Shown here: positions 55,218-63,681 of the stretch, piece by piece
How the letters are laid out: each line of letters opens with the position of its first letter
How positions within the stretch are numbered: position 1 is the first letter of the stretch
Assembly (NCBI GenBank): GCA_030428885.1
Contig: JAUIEJ010000001.1
Coordinates: 310,001 to 374,000 of the forward strand
Source of the DNA: Gemmatimonadota bacterium
GTDB taxonomy: Bacteria > Gemmatimonadota > Gemmatimonadetes > Longimicrobiales > Gaopeijiaceae
Direction of reading: 5' to 3'
DNA: 64,000 nucleotides
The notes under the pieces: generated by a model
The model's input: the letters and a program-made list of their open reading frames with translations, nothing else
Told to the model about the DNA's origin: nothing
Databases searched by the model: none
Translations under genes and position numbers: made by a program

Positions 55218-57485
55218 ATGACCCCACGCCGCCTCGCTTCCGCCATCGCTTTCTCGTGGGCTGCCGCGCTGCCGGTGGCGGCCCAGGAGTCCCCCGCCGA
55301 ACCCCTCGCTCCGGTGGATGCCCTGGTGCTTCCGCGCCCGGATCTCCGGGCGTCGAGGATCGACTCGCCCCCGACCCTGGACGGCGTGTTGGACGAGGCG
55401 GTCTGGCGGGGAGCCGACGCCACCGAGCCGTCGTGGATCCAGATCGGACCCGACGAGGGAATGCCGGGGAGCGAGTCCACCGTGGTCCGGATCCTCTACG
55501 ACGACGACGCGCTCTACGTCGGGGCGGAACTCTACGATCCCGAACCCGAGGCCCTCATCTCTCCGGGGCTGGAGCAGGACTTCGACACGTCGAGCTCGGA
55601 CATCTTCGGCATCGCCCTGGACACGTTCCACGATCGGGCCAACGGGTTCATCTTCGCGGTGAATCCCGCCGGCGCCCTCTTCGACGCCCAGACCTTCGAC
55701 GATCAGCGGGCCGTGAACCGGTCGTGGGAAGGGATCGTGGACGTGGAGACCACGGTCCTGGCCGATCGGTGGGTGGTGGAGATGCGGATTCCCTTCACCA
55801 CGCTGCGGTACACGCCGTCCCAGGGGTCCCAGACCTGGGGGCTCAACCTCTCCCGACGGATCCGCCGACGGAACGAAGACACGTTCTGGGCGCCCCTCTC
55901 CCGCCAGTACCGCATCTACAAGTTCAGCCTCGCCGGGACCCTGAGCGGCCTCGAGGGACTCCAGGGGGGGCGCAACCTCTGGGTGAAACCGTCGGCCCTG
56001 GCCGCCGACCGGAGCGGTTCCCAGGCCGCCGATCCGGGGCGGGACGGGGATCTGGGGGTGGACGTGAAGTGGGGGGTGACCCCGGGGCTCACCCTCGACC
56101 TCACCGTGAATACCGACTTCAGCCAGGTGGAAGTGGACCAGGAACAGGTGAACCTCGACCGGTTCAGCCTCTTCTTTCCGGAGAAGCGGGACTTCTTCCT
56201 GGAAAACGACGGCATCTTCGCGTTCGAGGACGTGCAGATGCGCAACTACCGCACGGGGAGCTCCCCTCGGAGCTTCAAGCTCTTCAACTCCCGTCGCATC
56301 GGGCTGGGCCCGGATCGCCGGCCCGTTCCGATCCTCGCCGGAGCCCGCCTTTCCGGACGGGTCGGGGGCCTCGAAGTGGGCCTGCTCGAGATGCAGACCC
56401 GCAGCACCGATCCCCGGGACGAGGTCACGCCGGGACTGCCCGGCGAGAACTTCGCCGCGGCCCGGCTCAAGGCTCCGGTGGGCGCGGTGGGAACCGTGGG
56501 GGCGATGGTCGTGAATCGGCAGGCCACCTCTGCCGGGTTCACGGGGGAGAACCGGGCCTACGGGGTGGACACCAATCTCCAGTTGTTCGGAAACCTGGTG
56601 GTCAGCGCCTACGGGGCCCGGACCGGCGGCGACGACGGAACGGGGCAGGTCGAGGGCGACCGCAACGTGGGCATGCTCCAGCTCGCCTGGCGCGATCCCC
56701 TCTGGAACGTGTCGGTCCTGGCGAAACACGTGGGCGACGCCTTCGACCCCCAGGTGGGGTTCGTCGACCGGCGGGGGGTGCGGCGCTGGTTCGCCACCGT
56801 GGGGGCCCACCCGCGCCCTCAGGGGCTGCCCGGGATCCTGGAGGTCAATCCGTACCTGGACGCGGATCTGTACACCACCCTGGGCGGGGCCACCGAGAGT
56901 CGCACCCTGACGCCGGGCCTGCAGCTCACCACCAGCGATGGCGGCAGCATCGTGCTGGAGGTTCGGGACCGCTTCGAACGGGTGTTCGAGCCGTTTCCCA
57001 TCGCCGGGGTCGAGGTGCCCGTGGGGTCGTTCGACTTCTCGGAGGTGTCGCTGGCCTGGACCGTTCCGGCGAGCCATCGCGTGTCGGGCCGGCTCTCCGT
57101 CACCCGGGGTGGATTCTACGACGGAGATCGCACCTCGGTGGGGGTCGACCTGGCGTTCCGCCCCAGCCCCCACTGGCAGCTTTCCGCCGGCGTGCAGCGC
57201 AACGAACTGGACTTCGGCGGGCGGGCGTTCACCGCCGACCTGTACGACGCCCGGGTCCGGTACGGCCACGACACGCGCACGTTTCTTTCGGCCTTCACCC
57301 AGTACAACCAGTCCAGCGACGAGTTGGTGACCAACGTGCGCTTCAACCTGATCCACGCGCCCCTCTCCGACCTCTTCGTGGTGTTCACCGAGCGGCGAGG
57401 GTTCTCCGGCGACGAGTTCGACGACGGGCCCGGCGTCCGGGAGCGGGGAATCACCCTGAAGGTGACTCGACTGGTGGCCTTCTGA
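55218..57485 (+). CDS. DUF5916 outer-membrane protein with CBM9-like domain
   Basis: This is a 755-residue exported protein of the DUF5916 type. The signal peptide ends near LPVAAQES. The N-terminal part (about 40-230) is a CBM9-like carbohydrate-binding domain: DSPPTLDGVLDEAVWRGADA..WIQIGPDEGMPGSESTVVRILYDDDALYVGAELYDPEP and VVEMRIPFTTLRYTPSQGSQTWGLNLSRRIRRRNEDTFWAPL. The C-terminal part is a long run of alternating beta strands, likely an outer-membrane beta-barrel, with DLTVNTDFSQVEVDQEQVNLDRFSLFFPEKRDFFLEN, the hallmark motif, and a final KVTRLVAF strand ending in Phe. It is thought to act in outer-membrane glycan handling but is not characterised. Its last 35 bp overlap the convergent nucleotidyltransferase gene. 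Confidence 0.9.
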   Translation: MTPRRLASAIAFSWAAALPVAAQESPAEPLAPVDALVLPRPDLRASRIDSPPTLDGVLDEAVWRGADATEPSWIQIGPDEGMPGSESTVVRILYDDDALYVGAELYDPEPEALISPGLEQDFDTSSSDIFGIALDTFHDRANGFIFAVNPAGALFDAQTFDDQRAVNRSWEGIVDVETTVLADRWVVEMRIPFTTLRYTPSQGSQTWGLNLSRRIRRRNEDTFWAPLSRQYRIYKFSLAGTLSGLEGLQGGRNLWVKPSALAADRSGSQAADPGRDGDLGVDVKWGVTPGLTLDLTVNTDFSQVEVDQEQVNLDRFSLFFPEKRDFFLENDGIFAFEDVQMRNYRTGSSPRSFKLFNSRRIGLGPDRRPVPILAGARLSGRVGGLEVGLLEMQTRSTDPRDEVTPGLPGENFAAARLKAPVGAVGTVGAMVVNRQATSAGFTGENRAYGVDTNLQLFGNLVVSAYGARTGGDDGTGQVEGDRNVGMLQLAWRDPLWNVSVLAKHVGDAFDPQVGFVDRRGVRRWFATVGAHPRPQGLPGILEVNPYLDADLYTTLGGATESRTLTPGLQLTTSDGGSIVLEVRDRFERVFEPFPIAGVEVPVGSFDFSEVSLAWTVPASHRVSGRLSVTRGGFYDGDRTSVGVDLAFRPSPHWQLSAGVQRNELDFGGRAFTADLYDARVRYGHDTRTFLSAFTQYNQSSDELVTNVRFNLIHAPLSDLFVVFTERRGFSGDEFDDGPGVRERGITLKVTRLVAF

Positions 57486-58683
57486 ACCACCGGTTCCGGA
57501 GCCGGGCCAGGCGCCATCGGATCCGCTCCAGCGCCGCCGAAAAGGGGCGGACCAGGTAGAGCAGGGGGAGAAGGGCCGCGGGAGGGTCGTCGTAGACCCA
57601 TGAGACGTAGGCCCTCGACGGCCACAACTCCCAGCGCAGGAGGGTGAGGCGTTGGGCCGGGGTGAGAGGAGGGCGCCCCGACAACTCCGGGTGGGCGCCC
57701 CCGGATTGGCGCGCGCCGAAGAGGGCCACGTCGCGGCGCAGCCCGCCGTCGGCGCCGGATCCCTCGTGGGCGGCCCCGAGTTCGGTGAGGATCGGCGGCG
57801 GCACCGGGGCGCCCAGGTCCCGGGCCAGGTATCCCAGCAGCACGGAGAGGGGAAGCTCCACCCGCATGTCCCGGGCCCGGGCCGGCACGGCCGACCACTC
57901 CAGCGCCGGCGTCCCGTGGATCAGCATCCACGCATCCACCGCCCACAGGAGGTTTGACCGGGTCGGGCTGTACGAGGCGTGGCCCAGGGCGTGGACGAGG
58001 GCGTCCACCGGATCGAGCACCGTCATGGCCCCGGTCCCGGGTCCTTCCACCCGGCGGGTGCGCAGACCCCCGTCGCCCAGGTGTCCCCGGTAGAAGGGCA
58101 GCCGATGGAGCCGGGAGAGCAGGAGCACCGGAAGCTCCGTCCCGTGGCGCAGGTCCACTCCCTGGGCCCGGTCCAGGGGTGGGGCGTCGGCGAAGCCCAA
58201 CTCCCGGACCACGGCGGCGGCGTCCCGGATCCGCTCCGGCATCAGGACGACGTCGATGTCGTGAGCATGGCGCAGGAAGGGGGCGGCGTAGGCCGTCTCG
58301 GCCAGGGCGGCGCCCCGGATCACCACGAACTCGAACCCCCGGCGCCCCAGGGCATCGAACACGTCGCCGCCGATGCGCCGGTAGATGTCCGACCTCAGTT
58401 GCTCCCGGAGCGTGGCCGTCTTGATGACGGTGCGGAGAGGCGCGTCGGCGTCCAGCCCGTTCTCCCGGATGCTCTCCAGGAGGAGGGGCGAGAGCCGCTT
58501 CCGGTTGCCCGTGTCGGTGCGGAAGAGGGACGGCAGGTCGGGAAGCCTGCCCTGGAAGTCCTCCCACGCCTCCCGGGCCTCGTCGCCCCGGTGCAGGATG
58601 GCCCGGAGCAGGAGGGTTTCGTCCCGCCCCGGGAGAATCCGCTCCAGGGCGCGCTCCAGGGTCGCCCGATCAGCCGGGCCCAC
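57451..58683 (-). CDS. PF14907-family nucleotidyltransferase
   Basis: This is a 410-residue protein of the uncharacterised nucleotidyltransferase family PF14907 (NTP_transf_5). The active-site region is FVVIRGAALAETAYAAPFLRHAHDIDVVL, with RGAAL at 123-127 and the paired aspartates D142/D144 in HDIDVV, which would bind metal. Later VDALVHALGHASYSPTRSNLLWAVDAWMLI matches the helical part. The C-terminus is Arg-rich. It is the last gene of a minus-strand operon; its start lies inside the preceding GT2 gene by 14 nt. Its final 35 bp overlap the convergent DUF5916 gene. The nucleotide and acceptor are unknown. Confidence 0.82.
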   Translation of the reverse strand: MGPADRATLERALERILPGRDETLLLRAILHRGDEAREAWEDFQGRLPDLPSLFRTDTGNRKRLSPLLLESIRENGLDADAPLRTVIKTATLREQLRSDIYRRIGGDVFDALGRRGFEFVVIRGAALAETAYAAPFLRHAHDIDVVLMPERIRDAAAVVRELGFADAPPLDRAQGVDLRHGTELPVLLLSRLHRLPFYRGHLGDGGLRTRRVEGPGTGAMTVLDPVDALVHALGHASYSPTRSNLLWAVDAWMLIHGTPALEWSAVPARARDMRVELPLSVLLGYLARDLGAPVPPPILTELGAAHEGSGADGGLRRDVALFGARQSGGAHPELSGRPPLTPAQRLTLLRWELWPSRAYVSWVYDDPPAALLPLLYLVRPFSAALERIRWRLARLRNRWFRRPPVESPSG

Positions 58684-59356
58684 CCGATCGTCTCCGATCC
58701 AGCGACGCCTTCATGTTGCGCAGGATCGCCTCGCGGCTCGCCAGGTCCGACCGGGTGAGGTTGCCCGTGTGGAGGCGGCGCCGGACCAGCACCTCCTCGA
58801 TCCGGTGCTCCCGGACGCCGGCGTCCCGGGCCCGGAGGAACCAGTCGTTGTCCTCGCCGACCCGGAGCGACGCCTCGAAGCGGCCGATGCGATCGAAGAC
58901 GGTCCGTCGCACGAGGATGCACTGGAGGAGATACCCCGGGGCCTCGGCGGCGAAGCGACTTCCTCGGTAGGCCGCCTCCTCGTGGGCGAGCTCGTCCATC
59001 CAGAAGTTCTGGACCAGGCCCACGGCCATCTCCAACTCGGGGTCCCGGCCGAAGGCGTGGAGCTGCCGGCGGAGTTTGCCCGGCATCCAGAGGTCGTCGG
59101 CGTCCTGAAACGCCACGAACTCGGTGTCCACCGCCTCCAGGCCCCGGTTCCGGGCGGCGGCCACACCGGCGTTGTCCTGACGGATGACCCGAATGCGGTC
59201 GCCGAAGGCCGCCAACACCTCGGGGGTGCCGTCGGTGGATCCGTCGTCCACCACCACGACCTGGAGGCCCTCCACCTCCTGGTCCAGGACGCTGCCCAGC
59301 GCCTCCTCCAGGAACCGTTCCCCGTTGTGGACGGGAAGCACACAGGTGACGCTCAC
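58670..59356 (-). CDS. Family 2 glycosyltransferase
   Basis: This is a 228-residue GT-A fold glycosyltransferase without membrane segments. It opens VSVTCVLPVHNGERFLEEALGSVLDQEVEGLQVVVVDDGSTDGTPEVLAAFGDRIRVIRQDNAGVAAARNRGLEAVDTEFVAFQDADDLWMPGKL, where DDGSTDGT and QDADD bind the nucleotide and metal. It ends with VRRRLHTGNLTRSDLASREAILRNMKASLDRRRSGG. It is one of three tandem paralogues; the GTG at 59356 overlaps the previous one as GTGA. The sugar and acceptor are unknown. Confidence 0.92.
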   Translation of the reverse strand: MSVTCVLPVHNGERFLEEALGSVLDQEVEGLQVVVVDDGSTDGTPEVLAAFGDRIRVIRQDNAGVAAARNRGLEAVDTEFVAFQDADDLWMPGKLRRQLHAFGRDPELEMAVGLVQNFWMDELAHEEAAYRGSRFAAEAPGYLLQCILVRRTVFDRIGRFEASLRVGEDNDWFLRARDAGVREHRIEEVLVRRRLHTGNLTRSDLASREAILRNMKASLDRRRSGGPG

Positions 59357-60084
59357 GCCTTCCGCTCCCGGTCCAGGGCCCGCTTGATCAGCTCGAGCAC
59401 GCCGTCGTAGCCCGGGCGCGCCTCCCGGGTGAGGTTGGCCGTGTGCTGACGACGGTGCAGCAACAGGCGGGGAAGGGTCTCGATGCGGTAGCCGGCCCGC
59501 ATGAACCGAATGAACCAATCCGTGTCCTCGCCGGTGCGGAGGGCCGGGTCGAATCCCCCCAGCGCCTCGAACACGCTGCGACGGGTCAGGAGGGTGCACG
59601 GCGACAACATGGGCTGTTCCCGGTGGTAGGGGTGGTCCTGGAAGCGCGCCCGTTCGTGGTCCAGTTCGGGAATCCAGAAACTCTGCAGGTGGCCGGAACA
59701 GAGGTCCACCTCGGGCCGGTCCCGGAGTAGCGCGAGCTGCGCCTCGAGCTTGTCGTCGACCCAGATGTCGTCGGCGTCGAGAAAGGCCACGAACTCGCCC
59801 CGGGACTCCTCCAGGCCGTGGTTGCGGGCGGCGCCGGGGCCGGCGTTGTCCTGGCGGATCACCCGGACGCGGGCCTCGAAGGGGGCCAGCGCCTGGACCG
59901 TGTCGTCGGTGGAGCCGTCGTCCACCACGATGACGTCGAGGGCGTCCCAGCTCTGCCGGAGAATGCTGTCCACGGCTTCGGTCACGTACCGCTCGCCGTT
60001 GTAGACCGGCACGATGCAGCTCACCACCCCCGTTTCCGGGGAGTGGCGGAAGGTCAGCGGGGCGACGGGTGCCGCGTCGGTCAC
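59353..60084 (-). CDS. Family 2 glycosyltransferase, second of three
   Basis: This is a 243-residue GT2 enzyme: VVSCIVPVYNGERYVTEAVDSILRQSWDALDVIVVDDGSTDDTVQALAPFEARVRVIRQDNAGPGAARNHGLEESRGEFVAFLDADDIWVDDKLEAQLALL. It carries a 19-residue N-terminal extension (TDAAPVAPLTFRHSPETG) absent from the other two. It ends RRQHTANLTREARPGYDGVLELIKRALDRERKA. It overlaps both neighbouring paralogues (ATGA/GTGA). The RQDNAG.G.ARN stretch is common to all three, so they are recent paralogues. Confidence 0.92.
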   Translation of the reverse strand: MTDAAPVAPLTFRHSPETGVVSCIVPVYNGERYVTEAVDSILRQSWDALDVIVVDDGSTDDTVQALAPFEARVRVIRQDNAGPGAARNHGLEESRGEFVAFLDADDIWVDDKLEAQLALLRDRPEVDLCSGHLQSFWIPELDHERARFQDHPYHREQPMLSPCTLLTRRSVFEALGGFDPALRTGEDTDWFIRFMRAGYRIETLPRLLLHRRQHTANLTREARPGYDGVLELIKRALDRERKA

Positions 60085-60785
60085 GACGTGCGCCCCCGCT
60101 CCCGATCGATCTTCTTCTTGAGCATGGCGAAGAACTCGTCGCGGCTCTGGGTCGCCATGGTTCGACTGCGGTTGTCCCGGTGGAGCCGGCGGCGGGTGAG
60201 GACCTCCTGGACCAGTTCACCCGAGGCCCCGGCGGCATCGGCCCGCTGGAACCAGTCGGCGGCGTCGCCGTGACCGAGGCTCGCGTCGAACCCGCCCGTC
60301 GTCTCCATCCATTCCCGTCGGACCAGGAGCGACTGGGTGACGTAGCCGGCCATGGGCTTCGCCCGGGCGTGGTCGGCCAGGCGCTCCCGTTCGTCGGCGA
60401 CCTCATCTTCCCAGAAGTTCTCCACCAGCGCCACGCAGTACGCCAGATCCGGTCGGGCGTCGAAGCGAGCGAGCTGGCGCTCGATCTTGTGGGGCAGCCA
60501 GAGGTCGTCGGCATCCTGGAACGACAGGAACCGGCCCCGGGCCCGGGACACGCCCGTGTTTCGGGCGGTGGCGGGGCCGGCGTTGTCCTGCCGCACGTAG
60601 GTGACGCGAGCACCGAAGCTTCGGGCCACCTCGGGGGTGCCGTCGGTGGAGCCGTCGTCCACGACGATCACCTCGTCCACCGGGACCGTCTGGGCGAACA
60701 CGCTCTCCAGACTCTCGGCCAGGAACCGCTCTCCGTTGTAGACCGGCACGATGCACGAGACCCGGGGGGGCGTCTCGCCGCTCAC
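60081..60785 (-). CDS. Family 2 glycosyltransferase, first of three
   Basis: This is a 234-residue GT2 enzyme: RVSCIVPVYNGERFLAESLESVFAQTVPVDEVIVVDDGSTDGTPEVARSFGARVTYVRQDNAGPATARNTGVSRARGRFLSFQDADDLWLPHKIERQLARFD. The C-terminal end is RRRLHRDNRSRTMATQSRDEFFAMLKKKIDRERGRTS. The GTG at 60785 overlaps the HprK-like stop as GTGA. It is first in the run of three paralogues within the PqqD/HprK operon, so it is likely to act on the same unknown product as that operon. Confidence 0.92.
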   Translation of the reverse strand: MSGETPPRVSCIVPVYNGERFLAESLESVFAQTVPVDEVIVVDDGSTDGTPEVARSFGARVTYVRQDNAGPATARNTGVSRARGRFLSFQDADDLWLPHKIERQLARFDARPDLAYCVALVENFWEDEVADERERLADHARAKPMAGYVTQSLLVRREWMETTGGFDASLGHGDAADWFQRADAAGASGELVQEVLTRRRLHRDNRSRTMATQSRDEFFAMLKKKIDRERGRTS

Positions 60786-61864
60786 GTGTGTTTCTCCAGG
60801 ATCTCGCCGATGCGAAGGGGAATCTCGTCCATGCTGCGCCCGAGTTCGAGCCAGTAGGTGGGGGTCGACTCCAGGAACGTGCTGAGCTTCTCGAACTCCC
60901 CGGCGGCCACGCCGGCGTAGGGCAGGAGGATCAAGGAGCTGGGGGCGAGACGGAGGAGGGCCTCGATGGTGGTGGCGGGGCGGATGCGGGGCGTGGGCGC
61001 GTCCACCACCACCGGCAGGGCCACGGCCCGGATCCGGGCCTTGCGGCTGAGGCCGTCGGGAAGGACGTCGGAGAGCAGGACCAGGCTCTTGTCCTCCCGG
61101 GGCAGGCGGCCCGGAATGGCGTGGGGCCGGAGGTAGGGAAACTTCTCCAGGTGCCCGGGCTCCAGGTGGGTCGAGCAGAACAGGCTGTGCCCGTCGTACC
61201 CGCCGTCGGGAAGGGCCTGGAGCCCTACGTAGTCGTCGGCCATGTACTCGAACCCGGCCTTGAGGCAGGTCAGGGCCGTGGTGGACTTCCCCGAGCCTCC
61301 GGGCCCCCCGAAGAGCACGCCCTGGCCGTCCCGGGCCACGAGGCCCGCGTGGATGGCCTGAACGTCCCGGTCCTTGTGCCAGAGCATGAGCTCGGAGTGG
61401 AGCGGGCGGCCGAGCTCGTACTGGGTGAGCTTGCCGTGGTCGGCGACCCATCCCACCAGGTCGCGGTCCACGCGGTGGAGGGCGGTGCGGGTCTGGGGGC
61501 GAGCGGTGAGGACGACGAAGCCATCGTCCGAGGCGTAGGTCTCGCCGTGTTCGTTGAGGTCGTCGGAGGGCTCGAGCCCGGGCAGCCCCACGCCGGTCTC
61601 GCCCTCGTCGAAGAGGGCGATGGTGAGGGCCGGCTCCGGAGCCGGGTCCCGCTGGAGGTGGCTGAAGGCCCGGAAGATGTCCCGGGCCAGCCCGTGGCCC
61701 ACGACCCGGATCCGGATGGGACGATCCGCGAAGGTGAACCACCGTTCGTGGCGCTGTTCGGGATGGGACTCCCACGCCTTGCCGAAGGCCCGGTCGAGTT
61801 GGACGTATTCGTCGGCGGGCGCCAACTCCGGGCGCGCGAAGCGGCCCTGGGGTGCCTCGGTCAT
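60782..61864 (-). CDS. HprK-like kinase (HPr-rel-A system type)
   Basis: This is a 360-residue protein with a single P-loop kinase core: HSELMLWHKDRDVQAIHAGLVARDGQGVLFGGPGGSGKSTTALTCLKAGFEYMADDYVGLQAL, with Walker A at 186-195 and the acidic pair at Asp210-Asp211. This matches HPr kinase/phosphorylase-like proteins encoded beside PqqD and PF14907 nucleotidyltransferases, and the HprK-like kinases of lasso-peptide clusters. An N-terminal region (1-170) is family-specific, and no HprK-type HPr substrate gene is present. It overlaps PqqD upstream and GT2 downstream by 4 nt. It probably phosphorylates a small molecule, peptide or protein made by this operon (inference). Confidence 0.85.
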   Translation of the reverse strand: MTEAPQGRFARPELAPADEYVQLDRAFGKAWESHPEQRHERWFTFADRPIRIRVVGHGLARDIFRAFSHLQRDPAPEPALTIALFDEGETGVGLPGLEPSDDLNEHGETYASDDGFVVLTARPQTRTALHRVDRDLVGWVADHGKLTQYELGRPLHSELMLWHKDRDVQAIHAGLVARDGQGVLFGGPGGSGKSTTALTCLKAGFEYMADDYVGLQALPDGGYDGHSLFCSTHLEPGHLEKFPYLRPHAIPGRLPREDKSLVLLSDVLPDGLSRKARIRAVALPVVVDAPTPRIRPATTIEALLRLAPSSLILLPYAGVAAGEFEKLSTFLESTPTYWLELGRSMDEIPLRIGEILEKHT

Positions 61865-62283
61865 TCGGCGGGCACGGTGCCCAGCCCGGGCATGGGGGGA
61901 TCCAGCGCCAGGAGGTCGGCCATGTCGTCGTACCGGTTCAGGGTGGGCGCGGCGTAGGCGGCCGACCCGGCGGGCTCGTGGGCAGCCGGAGCGTCGGGGA
62001 TCTCTTCCGTCGTCACCACCAGCCCTTCGTCCAGCAGCTCACCCACCAGTCGCTGCACGTCGGCCTCCACGGTGGCCCGTTCGACGTCGTAGCGCGCTTC
62101 CAGGGTGCCGGCCATCTCGGCCACGCTCCGGGATTGCTCCACCATCTCCCAGATGGCCGAACCCACCTCGTCCATGCTGTAGTACAGGCCGTTGGCGAGG
62201 TTCATGATGATGGCTTCGCCGTCGATGACCTTGGCGGCGACGTCGCCCGTGTTCGGGTGGACGCGCAGTGCGGAATCCGACAT
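61861..62283 (-). CDS. PqqD-family protein with leader-like C-terminal tail
   Basis: This is a 140-residue PqqD-like RRE (RiPP recognition element) protein. The winged-helix core runs from about 5 to 92: VHPNTGDVAAKVIDGEAIIMNLANGLYYSMDEVGSAIWEMVEQSRSVAEMAGTLEARYDVERATVEADVQRLVGELLDEGLVV, with the GLYYSMDEVGSAIWEMV block typical of PqqD/LasB1. A tail follows (100-140) containing YAAPTLNRYDDMADLLALDPP, with Tyr110, Pro113, Leu115, Tyr118 and Asp119-Asp120 spaced like the YxxPxLxxYGD leader motif of lasso-peptide precursors. SD AAAGGAG lies 10 nt before the ATG. The operon has no room for a separate precursor peptide next to it. Confidence 0.86.
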   Translation of the reverse strand: MSDSALRVHPNTGDVAAKVIDGEAIIMNLANGLYYSMDEVGSAIWEMVEQSRSVAEMAGTLEARYDVERATVEADVQRLVGELLDEGLVVTTEEIPDAPAAHEPAGSAAYAAPTLNRYDDMADLLALDPPMPGLGTVPAE

Positions 62284-62302
62284 GGAAGGCAGTCTCCTTT
62301 GG

Positions 62303-63520
62303 CTAGTACTCGAGGGTCCAGAAGTCGGGCACCCGACGGGTGATCCGCTTCCAGTCCAGTATCGTCTGCAGGACCAACAGCTTCAGGCCGAAACCCAGCC
62401 CGGAACTCGGCTCCGGAGCCGCGTCCTCGGGACCCTCCTCCCCGGCCCACACCCAGTGGAGGGAATCGCCCCGACCCGTGATCCGCTCCCGGAAGGCGCG
62501 CTTGCGATGATCGGTCCGTGCGCCCCAGAGCCGGAAGAGGTGTCGGTCCACCACCGCCCCCCGTCCCGGCTCGTCCAGGACACGCCCCACGGGGCCGAAT
62601 GCGCTGATGAGGCCCCGGGCCCGGGGGGGCAACGCCCGCCCATCCAGGAGAGGCGCGGGGGCCTCGGTGCCCAGGAGCACGTGGGCCAGACGGAGCGACA
62701 CGCACAGGAACCCGTGGAGGCCCGCCTCCCGGGCCTCCCGGGTGACGAGTGCCCAGTCCAGCTCCGGCTCGGCGGCCAGCCGATCGAGATCGACGAGGCG
62801 CCGAAGTCCACGCACCGATTCCTGCTCGATCTGGCTCACCGTGTGGATCAGGGTGTCTTCCGTGGCGGGCACCCGGAGGGGAGGCGCCCCGGGCGGCTCC
62901 AGGGTGACGGCCCGGGCCTGGAAGCCGGCGGGGTCGAGCCGGATGGCGTCCTGGGGCCGGGTGAGCTGCCAGTGGACCTCCACCAGGAAGCCCCGGGGGT
63001 GGGCCACCCGGTCGTGCTGATGGTGTTGGCGGAACTCCGCGCGGGCGTGCTCCGGATACTCGCTGCGGTAGCCGAGACCGGTGAGGGCGTCCAGCACCGG
63101 ATCGACCTCGGACCGCTCCACGAGGATGTCCAGGTCACCCATGACCCGTTCCACCGGGCTGAAGGTCCCTCGCCGCAGGGCCCCGCCCTTGAGCACCAGC
63201 GGGTGGAACCCCGCTCGGGCCAGCCCGGCCAGGACCCGGTCCTGCTCCATGTCCCAGAAGGCCGCCTGGCGGCGGAGGATCGCCAGGGTCTCGTCGATCT
63301 CGGCGTCGGTCCCGGGCAGGGAGACCCCTCGGTTCCGCAGCTCCCGCAGGCGGCTCAGGACGAGGCCGTGGACGCCATGGCGCATGGCCAGAGCCGAGAG
63401 GGCGGGAAAGGCGTCGACTCCCGACGCGGCGCTCGCTTCGGCGGCGACGTCCCCCCGAGGCTGCCGCCGGCAGAGTTCCAGGAGCAGGCGCTCCTCGGGG
63501 GTCGGGGAGGGAGGGGTCAT
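62303..63520 (-). CDS. PF14907-family nucleotidyltransferase, first gene of operon
   Basis: This is a 405-residue PF14907 protein, distinct from but related to the one at 57451. Active-site residues are visible as [87 protein letters not shown] at 111-115, GDLDIL with Asp129/Asp131, and a later FLVEVHW strand. The ATG at 63520 is chosen over the long frame to 63676, which would run into the divergent uvrA leader. It begins the operon, 19 nt before PqqD. The reaction is unknown; nucleotidylation of a small molecule is suggested by the fold. Confidence 0.83.
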
Positions 63521-63681
63521 GGGGGCGGATGGAAATGCCACGGATCGGTAACGCCCGGACGGTAGAGGTACCCCGGAGTCGGGGCAAGCGTATATCGGCT
63601 GGGGCATCGGAACTCCGGTGCGGGCCGGGGGTTGGCTCCGAATTGACCCTTGCAGCCGCATTCGACCCTGGGACACCCTCC

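Follow-up and report, generated by a model that had tools for sequence, protein, structure and literature searches.

Among described systems, the LPP clusters, of which lpp from Paenibacillus is the model, are characterized by a discrete RRE (the recognition element of ribosomally synthesized and post-translationally modified peptides, RiPPs), an HprK-like kinase and a nucleoside triphosphate (NTP) transferase, and they have no macrolactam cyclase. According to the sections of PMC13381572 that deal with them, they often lie in glycan loci, the RRE pairs with the leader through a YxxPx[LV] motif, and kinase and NTP transferase occur without cyclisation. LppK is strictly Ser-specific, no activity was seen when LppN was assayed, and the authors describe the clusters as restricted to Bacillota. 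Lasso peptide clusters of the paeninodin/pseudomycoidin type also encode an HprK-like kinase, which needs conserved His-Lys-Asp-Asp residues, and a PF14907-type nucleotidyltransferase. In the account of pseudomycoidin given in PMC9266682, the C-terminal Ser is first phosphorylated by PsmK and then receives one or two hexoses through PsmN, which is homologous to nucleotidyltransferases and may be helped by a host enzyme. Here we describe a compact seven-gene operon on the minus strand of a Gemmatimonadota bacterium, at positions 57451–63520 of a 64,000-nucleotide stretch (the window, C2:310001-374000 of genome G000). It encodes two PF14907 proteins (A and G), a PqqD-type RRE protein (B), an HprK-like kinase (C) and three family 2 glycosyltransferases (GT2; D, E and F). 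At the level of sequence, the C-terminal tail of B copies a lasso leader (aromatic-x-x-P-x-L-x-x-aromatic ... L), minus the Thr that marks the cleavage site.

The initial annotation had related the operon to lasso-associated kinase/nucleotidyltransferase modules, and this kinship is upheld. Unlike the paeninodin and pseudomycoidin clusters, however, the operon has an extra PF14907 gene and three GT2 genes; among the components that define a lasso cluster, the RRE (B1) is represented by B, whereas the leader peptidase B2, the macrolactam cyclase and a separate precursor are missing. Compared to LPP clusters, the leader motif sits on the RRE itself and three GT2s belong to the core, whereas no SpI-like peptidase and no MsbA-like transporter is present (there is no ATP-binding cassette (ABC) match near the RRE of the window). 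A separate precursor of the form YxxPxVLxHQxIxFETxxS was found neither in the stretch around the operon nor in its own genome with a tail query. HPr-rel-A systems (TIGR04352/TIGR04353), to which the operon had also been likened, resemble it in that an HprK-related kinase lies beside a PqqD-type protein. This assignment does not hold: C scores 28 bits against the TIGR04352 cut-off of 200, and TIGR04353 does not match B at E ≤ 0.1. None of the seven proteins, and no homologous tail RRE, exceeds the cut-off of an NCBIfam family; the best match of E and F is the mycofactocin protein MftF (TIGR03965; 114 and 98 bits), far below the cut-off of 280, and the search for other mycofactocin genes was confined to the operon. 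The operon is thus not an HPr-rel-A system, not a lasso cluster and not a full LPP cluster.

B exceeds the length of a discrete RRE, and its lasso-leader-like C-terminal end, YAAPTLNRYDDMADLLALDPPMPG, had been passed over by the initial annotation. This tail aligns collinearly with lasso leaders from its own phylum (YAAPTLREYGTVAAVTATR), yet lacks the cleavage Thr. More generally, the leaders of the lasso precursors of tail-hosting phyla align position by position with the tails (YAAPTLREYGTVAAVTATR; WTAPVLRTLGDLSALTQ), apart from the penultimate leader Thr, in whose place the tails have Leu. Examples are the window tail YAAPTLNRY and the leader YAAPTLREY from the same phylum, and the tail WTAPVLEVF and the leader WTAPVLRTL. 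The likeness reaches past the RRE-binding motif: in a comparison of 25 tails with 10 leaders, the real score was reached by 6 of 5000 joint column permutations, although the motif by which the leaders had been chosen itself requires hydrophobic residues at the positions concerned.

RREs with such a tail were gathered by profile searches and inspection in 395 genomes of the phylum, 400 genomes of the phylum of the Chloroflexota member, the named genome collection and plasmids; the profiles were built from tail-bearing RREs, so that tailless RREs are under-sampled. The 25 distinct sequences share [YFW]xxPxLxx[FY]xDMxDLLxLDP. After LDP, 20 of them continue with I/V-H-D/E-V...GWP and five, the group of the window, with PPMP. 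There is no conserved Ser in this region: the window tail has none, and none occurs in 12 of the 25 tails, one of which is cut by a contig end. The hosts are Gemmatimonadota, Chloroflexota and one cyanobacterium, Crinalium epipsammum, whose plasmid NC_019735 carries the series PqqD – nucleotidyltransferase – HPr kinase – FkbM – glycosyltransferase (GT); a tblastn search of plasmids with a Chloroflexota RRE returned two records, the tail being present in the Crinalium one. It is reported that 21% of the PF05402 proteins exceed the length of a discrete RRE without a further Pfam domain (PMC12710340). The relevant RRE-survey passages of PMC12710340 and PMC7470986 make no mention of a fused leader, and a search of the open-licence literature in PubMed Central retrieved no description of leader-fused RREs.

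The AlphaFold2 model of B, built from six sequences, consists of an RRE made of strands and helices (residues 7–92), a weakly predicted, disordered linker (blocks with a predicted local distance difference test, pLDDT, of 60–62) and an ordered tail segment: residues 111–120 have a mean pLDDT of 92, with a strand at 115–118 followed by a helix at 121–125. The model of a Chloroflexota homologue (L056) has the same pattern (tail pLDDT 88, strand 119–122, linker 50–55), and in both proteins the predicted tail strand starts at the Leu of YxxPxL. Because DSSP assigns a strand in a monomer only where another segment of the chain pairs with it, the tail strand is predicted to pair with the RRE of its own chain. 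The tail would thus fold back onto its own RRE as a leader does. In the crystal structures of PbaB1-PbaA and LppB-LppA, as described in PMC13381572, the residues that follow YxxPx[LV] extend the sheet of the RRE. The nearest solved folds to B are complexes of TbiB1 with its leader (5v1u; Z 12.9, root-mean-square deviation 1.3, 84 residues aligned), and B matches lasso RREs in sequence (5v1u, 72 bits; 9x90, 57 bits). The hydrophobic groove positions are kept in B, according to a hand alignment to the residue numbers given in PMC13381572. The Foldseek structure search gave no match spanning the tail alone and is uninformative as to its fold.

In a tree based on the RRE only (67 rows and 86 columns, after removal of the matches that start beyond profile position 25 or end before 84), the 25 tail RREs form one clade with a support of 80/85, which is moderate and rests on few columns. 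The clade is present in 80% of the bootstrap trees, and shuffled labels require about 20 changes. The neighbourhoods within 6 kb were compared for 26 tail rows from 24 stretches and 48 other rows from 46 stretches, many of them cut by contig ends. PF14907 is found near 20 tail RREs and 25 others, HprK near 14 and 35, GT2 near 19 and 3, B2 near 0 and 28 and cyclase C near 0 and 34 (Fisher p of 3e-9 for GT2, 1e-7 for B2 and 4e-10 for cyclase C, the loci not being independent). ABC counts are alike (13 tail loci, one of which, in L072, is probably uvrA, and 20 others). These differences in gene content indicate that the leader fusion accompanies the loss of B2 and cyclase C and the gain of GT2s. 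The tail stretches include near relatives (L108, L109 and L110), and the other set takes in L070, L071 and three rows of L117; L062, a near-copy of L063, was excluded, while L053, L054 and L055 were counted once, as L072, L060 and L059. Genes in related loci were called with a home-made scorer of open reading frames and checked by profile only. The kinase motif pattern was matched in 36 of 50 kinase frames and missed in some homologues, including the kinases of L006 and L058.

In L063 (3287-5146) an HprK-like kinase and a GT2 occupy one open frame, in which Pfam recognizes both domains; this frame supports a partnership between the kinase and the GT2s. Similar frames of 594–604 residues, matched by profile or phmmer only, occur in L064, L065 and L066. 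Wzm/Wzt-like or MsbA-like exporters are present in some tail loci. In L114 (5272-12704) and L065 (5178-12938), the tail RRE and PF14907 adjoin permease/ATPase pairs of the polysaccharide-export ABC-2 type, with GTs in both. Two Chloroflexota stretches, L108 and L110, each carry a pair of tail RREs on a single contig, separated by about 11-15 kb; PF14907 accompanies one of them and GT genes the other.

Around the window operon, a motif scan for a separate precursor on both strands turned up nothing but the tail of B. The full scan, which comprised the window operon and the loci as far as L075 but neither L086 nor the later Chloroflexota stretches, gave no convincing precursor in tail loci: apart from tails, it returned the lasso precursor already known from L006 and some short frames judged spurious by eye. 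Short peptides carrying the tail motif elsewhere, which the initial annotation had proposed to look for, were not found in the genome of the host, where a 34-residue tail query gave no second copy (the next match has an E value of 0.09, and the matches are long frames or weak). Searches by motif and by tail query do not cover a precursor with another leader. The peptidase B2 (Transglut_core3) is matched in this genome only at C2:302705 and, below the cut-off, on C11. A phmmer search with the SpI-like (SipW-type) peptidase of L070 matched only L070 and L071 among 70 stretches, the window included, and none of the 24 tail stretches.

The layout of the operon (Table 1) agrees with the initial annotation in its open reading frames and coordinates, and Pfam profiles and motifs uphold the proposed assignments of the genes. 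A and G score 138 and 82 bits against NTP_transf_5 (cut-off 31.2) and both retain the nucleotidyltransferase signature; G has diverged from its counterpart, with which it aligns over just 100 residues at 30% identity. B scores 67 bits against PqqD (PF05402, cut-off 23.4), and D, E and F 106–124 bits against Glycos_transf_2 (cut-off 23.3), with DDGST and DADD motifs retained. C, at 26.5 bits, is below the curated cut-off of 33.3 for the HPr kinase C-terminal domain, but its H...GxxGxGK...DD motif is intact, including the His, the P-loop Lys and the Asp pair. The gap between A and B is 19 nucleotides and all other junctions are overlaps, of four nucleotides (B/C, C/D, D/E, E/F) or 14 (F/G). The single transcription unit that had been proposed is upheld. 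The three GT2s are overlapping paralogues, as had been stated, with pairwise identities of 45–49%, and the operon does lack a precursor, a cyclase and a protease. A scan for promoters and terminators found no promoter-like site and a single terminator-like site, which is on the plus strand and compares with a mean of 1.7 in shuffled sequence. To the left of the operon lies a convergent gene, and to the right a divergent gene, taken from its sequence to be uvrA.

Table 1. Features of the operon, with positions in the window
Feature	Product	Position	Strand	Length (amino acids)	Remarks
A	PF14907 nucleotidyltransferase-like protein	62303..63520	-	405	Start ATG at 63520, GTG at 63541 possible; nucleotidyltransferase signature KGGAL...MGDLD intact
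B	PqqD-type RRE (residues about 7-92), linker and leader-like tail (from Y110)	61861..62283	-	140	
Tail of B	Leader-like tail, YAAPTLNRYDDMADLLALDPPMPGLGTVPAE (residues 110-140), and stop codon	61861..61956	-		
C	HprK-like kinase	60782..61864	-	360	IHAGLV...GPGGSGKS...ADDYV motif intact
D	GT2 glycosyltransferase	60081..60785	-	234	
E	GT2 glycosyltransferase	59353..60084	-	243	
F	GT2 glycosyltransferase	58670..59356	-	228	
G	Second PF14907 protein	57451..58683	-	410	RGAAL...HDID present

A lack of synteny in relatives had been named beforehand as a possible refutation of the unit, which survived this comparison. The kinase has a match at 1e-10 in 7 of the 154 genomes of the order, the host included. 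In the congener G043 (Gemmatimonadetes MAG IDS-52; its stretch L053 is identical in sequence to L072), genes A to E and the start of F are collinear with the window until the contig ends, and the kinase is 83% identical. In a second, distant congener, G042 (L058), the seven gene kinds occur again, in the order B-C-GT2x3-NTP-NTP. Nothing suggests that the operon is a chance assembly.

On the left of the operon, at a distance of about 58 kb, the host also has a canonical lasso cluster (G000:C2:302062-308951, which is L006 4063-10952), with a precursor, B1, B2, cyclase C, a kinase, an ABC pair and a PF14907 gene. The precursor has 50 residues, MYQKPRLERFGTLRELTLIG...NRS, and its C-terminal Ser is the expected site of phosphorylation. 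With this canonical cluster present in the same genome, the operon is no fragment of it. A third set in this genome, on contig C20 (L008 6989-11042), consists of a PqqD-like protein whose C-terminal region has a hydrophobic stretch and ends Lys-rich, a PF14907 protein and a short divergent gene, which, judged by eye, may be an HprK remnant. Outside Bacillota, L070 (9339-14956) and L071 (2097-5436) are LPP-like loci with an RRE, an S24/S26-like peptidase, an HprK-like kinase and a PF14907 protein. Their RREs end in [YW]xxP...FGELEQLILSGE-stop and seem to have acquired a leader in a separate fusion event.

The explanation that we favour, with a probability of roughly 0.55, is that the operon is a kinase–nucleotidyltransferase module of the lasso/LPP type in which the leader has been fused to the RRE, so that B is a self-liganded scaffold directing the kinase, the PF14907 proteins and the GT2s to an acceptor other than a linked precursor peptide. 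The tail, which in sequence copies a lasso leader minus the Thr of the cleavage site, is predicted to fold onto the RRE of the same chain; B would then be an RRE with a built-in ligand, whose helix and conserved end (DMxDLLxLDP...) would be free to recruit enzymes. The scaffold would gather kinase C, which would phosphorylate the acceptor; A and/or G may add a sugar or a nucleotidyl group to the phosphate, as PsmN appears to do in pseudomycoidin, and D, E and F could extend the sugar. The acceptor would be neither a linked precursor peptide nor, in this clade, a Ser of B's own end. It is probably a glycan or glycoconjugate, which is favoured because of the GT2s and the glycan-type or MsbA-like exporters of some relatives. 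B itself is unlikely to accept the phosphate, since the tail end has no Ser in the window and in 12 of the 25 tails, and the related LppK is described in PMC13381572 as Ser-specific. The lack of Ser in the tail, and of any separate tail carrier or precursor in the searches, therefore favours a self-liganded scaffold that acts on an acceptor outside the operon.

B might instead be the substrate, as a fusion of an RRE with a precursor. In that case the conserved residues behind the leader motif would form a RiPP core on which C, A/G and D to F act in cis, and B would either be a carrier protein or yield a small conserved product, like pyrroloquinoline quinone or mycofactocin. Since the tail is collinear with a leader, the residues that follow would be the core, and they are conserved (GWP or PPMP). 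The sub-threshold resemblance of E and F to MftF points the same way, as do L070 and L071, where RREs that resemble an RRE–leader fusion lie in an LPP-like setting, beside an SpI-like peptidase, a kinase and a nucleotidyltransferase. We nevertheless consider it rather unlikely that B is the substrate: the related kinases need a Ser (PMC13381572), which the window and nearly half of the tails lack after LDP, and with neither B2 near the 26 tail loci nor an SpI-like peptidase in their stretches there is no visible means of releasing a product. The proposal that the operon tailors an unlinked ribosomal peptide, the tail being an autoinhibitory lid displaced by the true leader, seems improbable. 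The lasso cluster at a distance of about 58 kb does encode a peptide with the right type of leader (YQKPRLERFGTLRELT) and a C-terminal Ser, but it carries its own kinase and PF14907 protein, and B2 and cyclase C are missing from all the tail neighbourhoods. As for an undetected precursor, the motif scan and the own-genome tail search gave no convincing candidate, other leader types being outside both. Finally, GT2s and glycan-type exporters near several tail loci would also suit an ordinary polysaccharide locus whose PqqD protein is a non-RRE helix-turn-helix remnant with no role in peptide binding. This is very improbable, given the match of B to lasso RREs in both sequence and fold and its conserved groove, and it would leave the persistence of a leader motif across three phyla without a reason.

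Several observations weigh against the self-liganded scaffold. Only 14 of the 26 tail RREs have HprK in their 6-kb neighbourhood, and the exporter found in several tail loci is absent from the window operon. The docking of the tail is a prediction from six sequences; the tail might act as a lid that gives way to a precursor encoded elsewhere, and the LPP-like loci L070 and L071, whose RREs end in ..FGELEQLILSGE beside an SpI-like peptidase, keep the fused-precursor explanation alive. A co-variation between the tail Tyr and Asp75 of the RRE (Asp in 6 of 6 cases with Tyr, in 0 of 15 with Phe or Trp tails; Fisher p 0.0012) ranks about third of 189 column tests and amounts to one independent pair on supported branches. 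It was discounted as support, because it is unremarkable among that many tests and confounded by descent.

A bolder form of the scaffold reading, which we put forward tentatively and regard as doubtful, is that the RRE was fused once to its own leader, with the loss of cleavage, core and cyclase, and that in at least three phyla the permanently self-liganded scaffold now directs a phosphorylation–glycosylation line (HprK-like kinase, PF14907 transferases, GT2s and often an exporter) that builds a non-ribosomal glycoconjugate. If it is true, RiPP machinery has been turned into a glycan pathway. The scaffold explanation, if right, reveals a route for such machinery out of ribosomal peptides: the adaptor captures the leader, and the enzymes are freed for other targets. 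It would also offer a testable way into the PF14907 family, which is uncharacterised, and into what HprK-like kinases do in glycan loci. For genome mining, it would be a caution that clusters with an RRE but lacking a precursor need not belong to the RiPPs.

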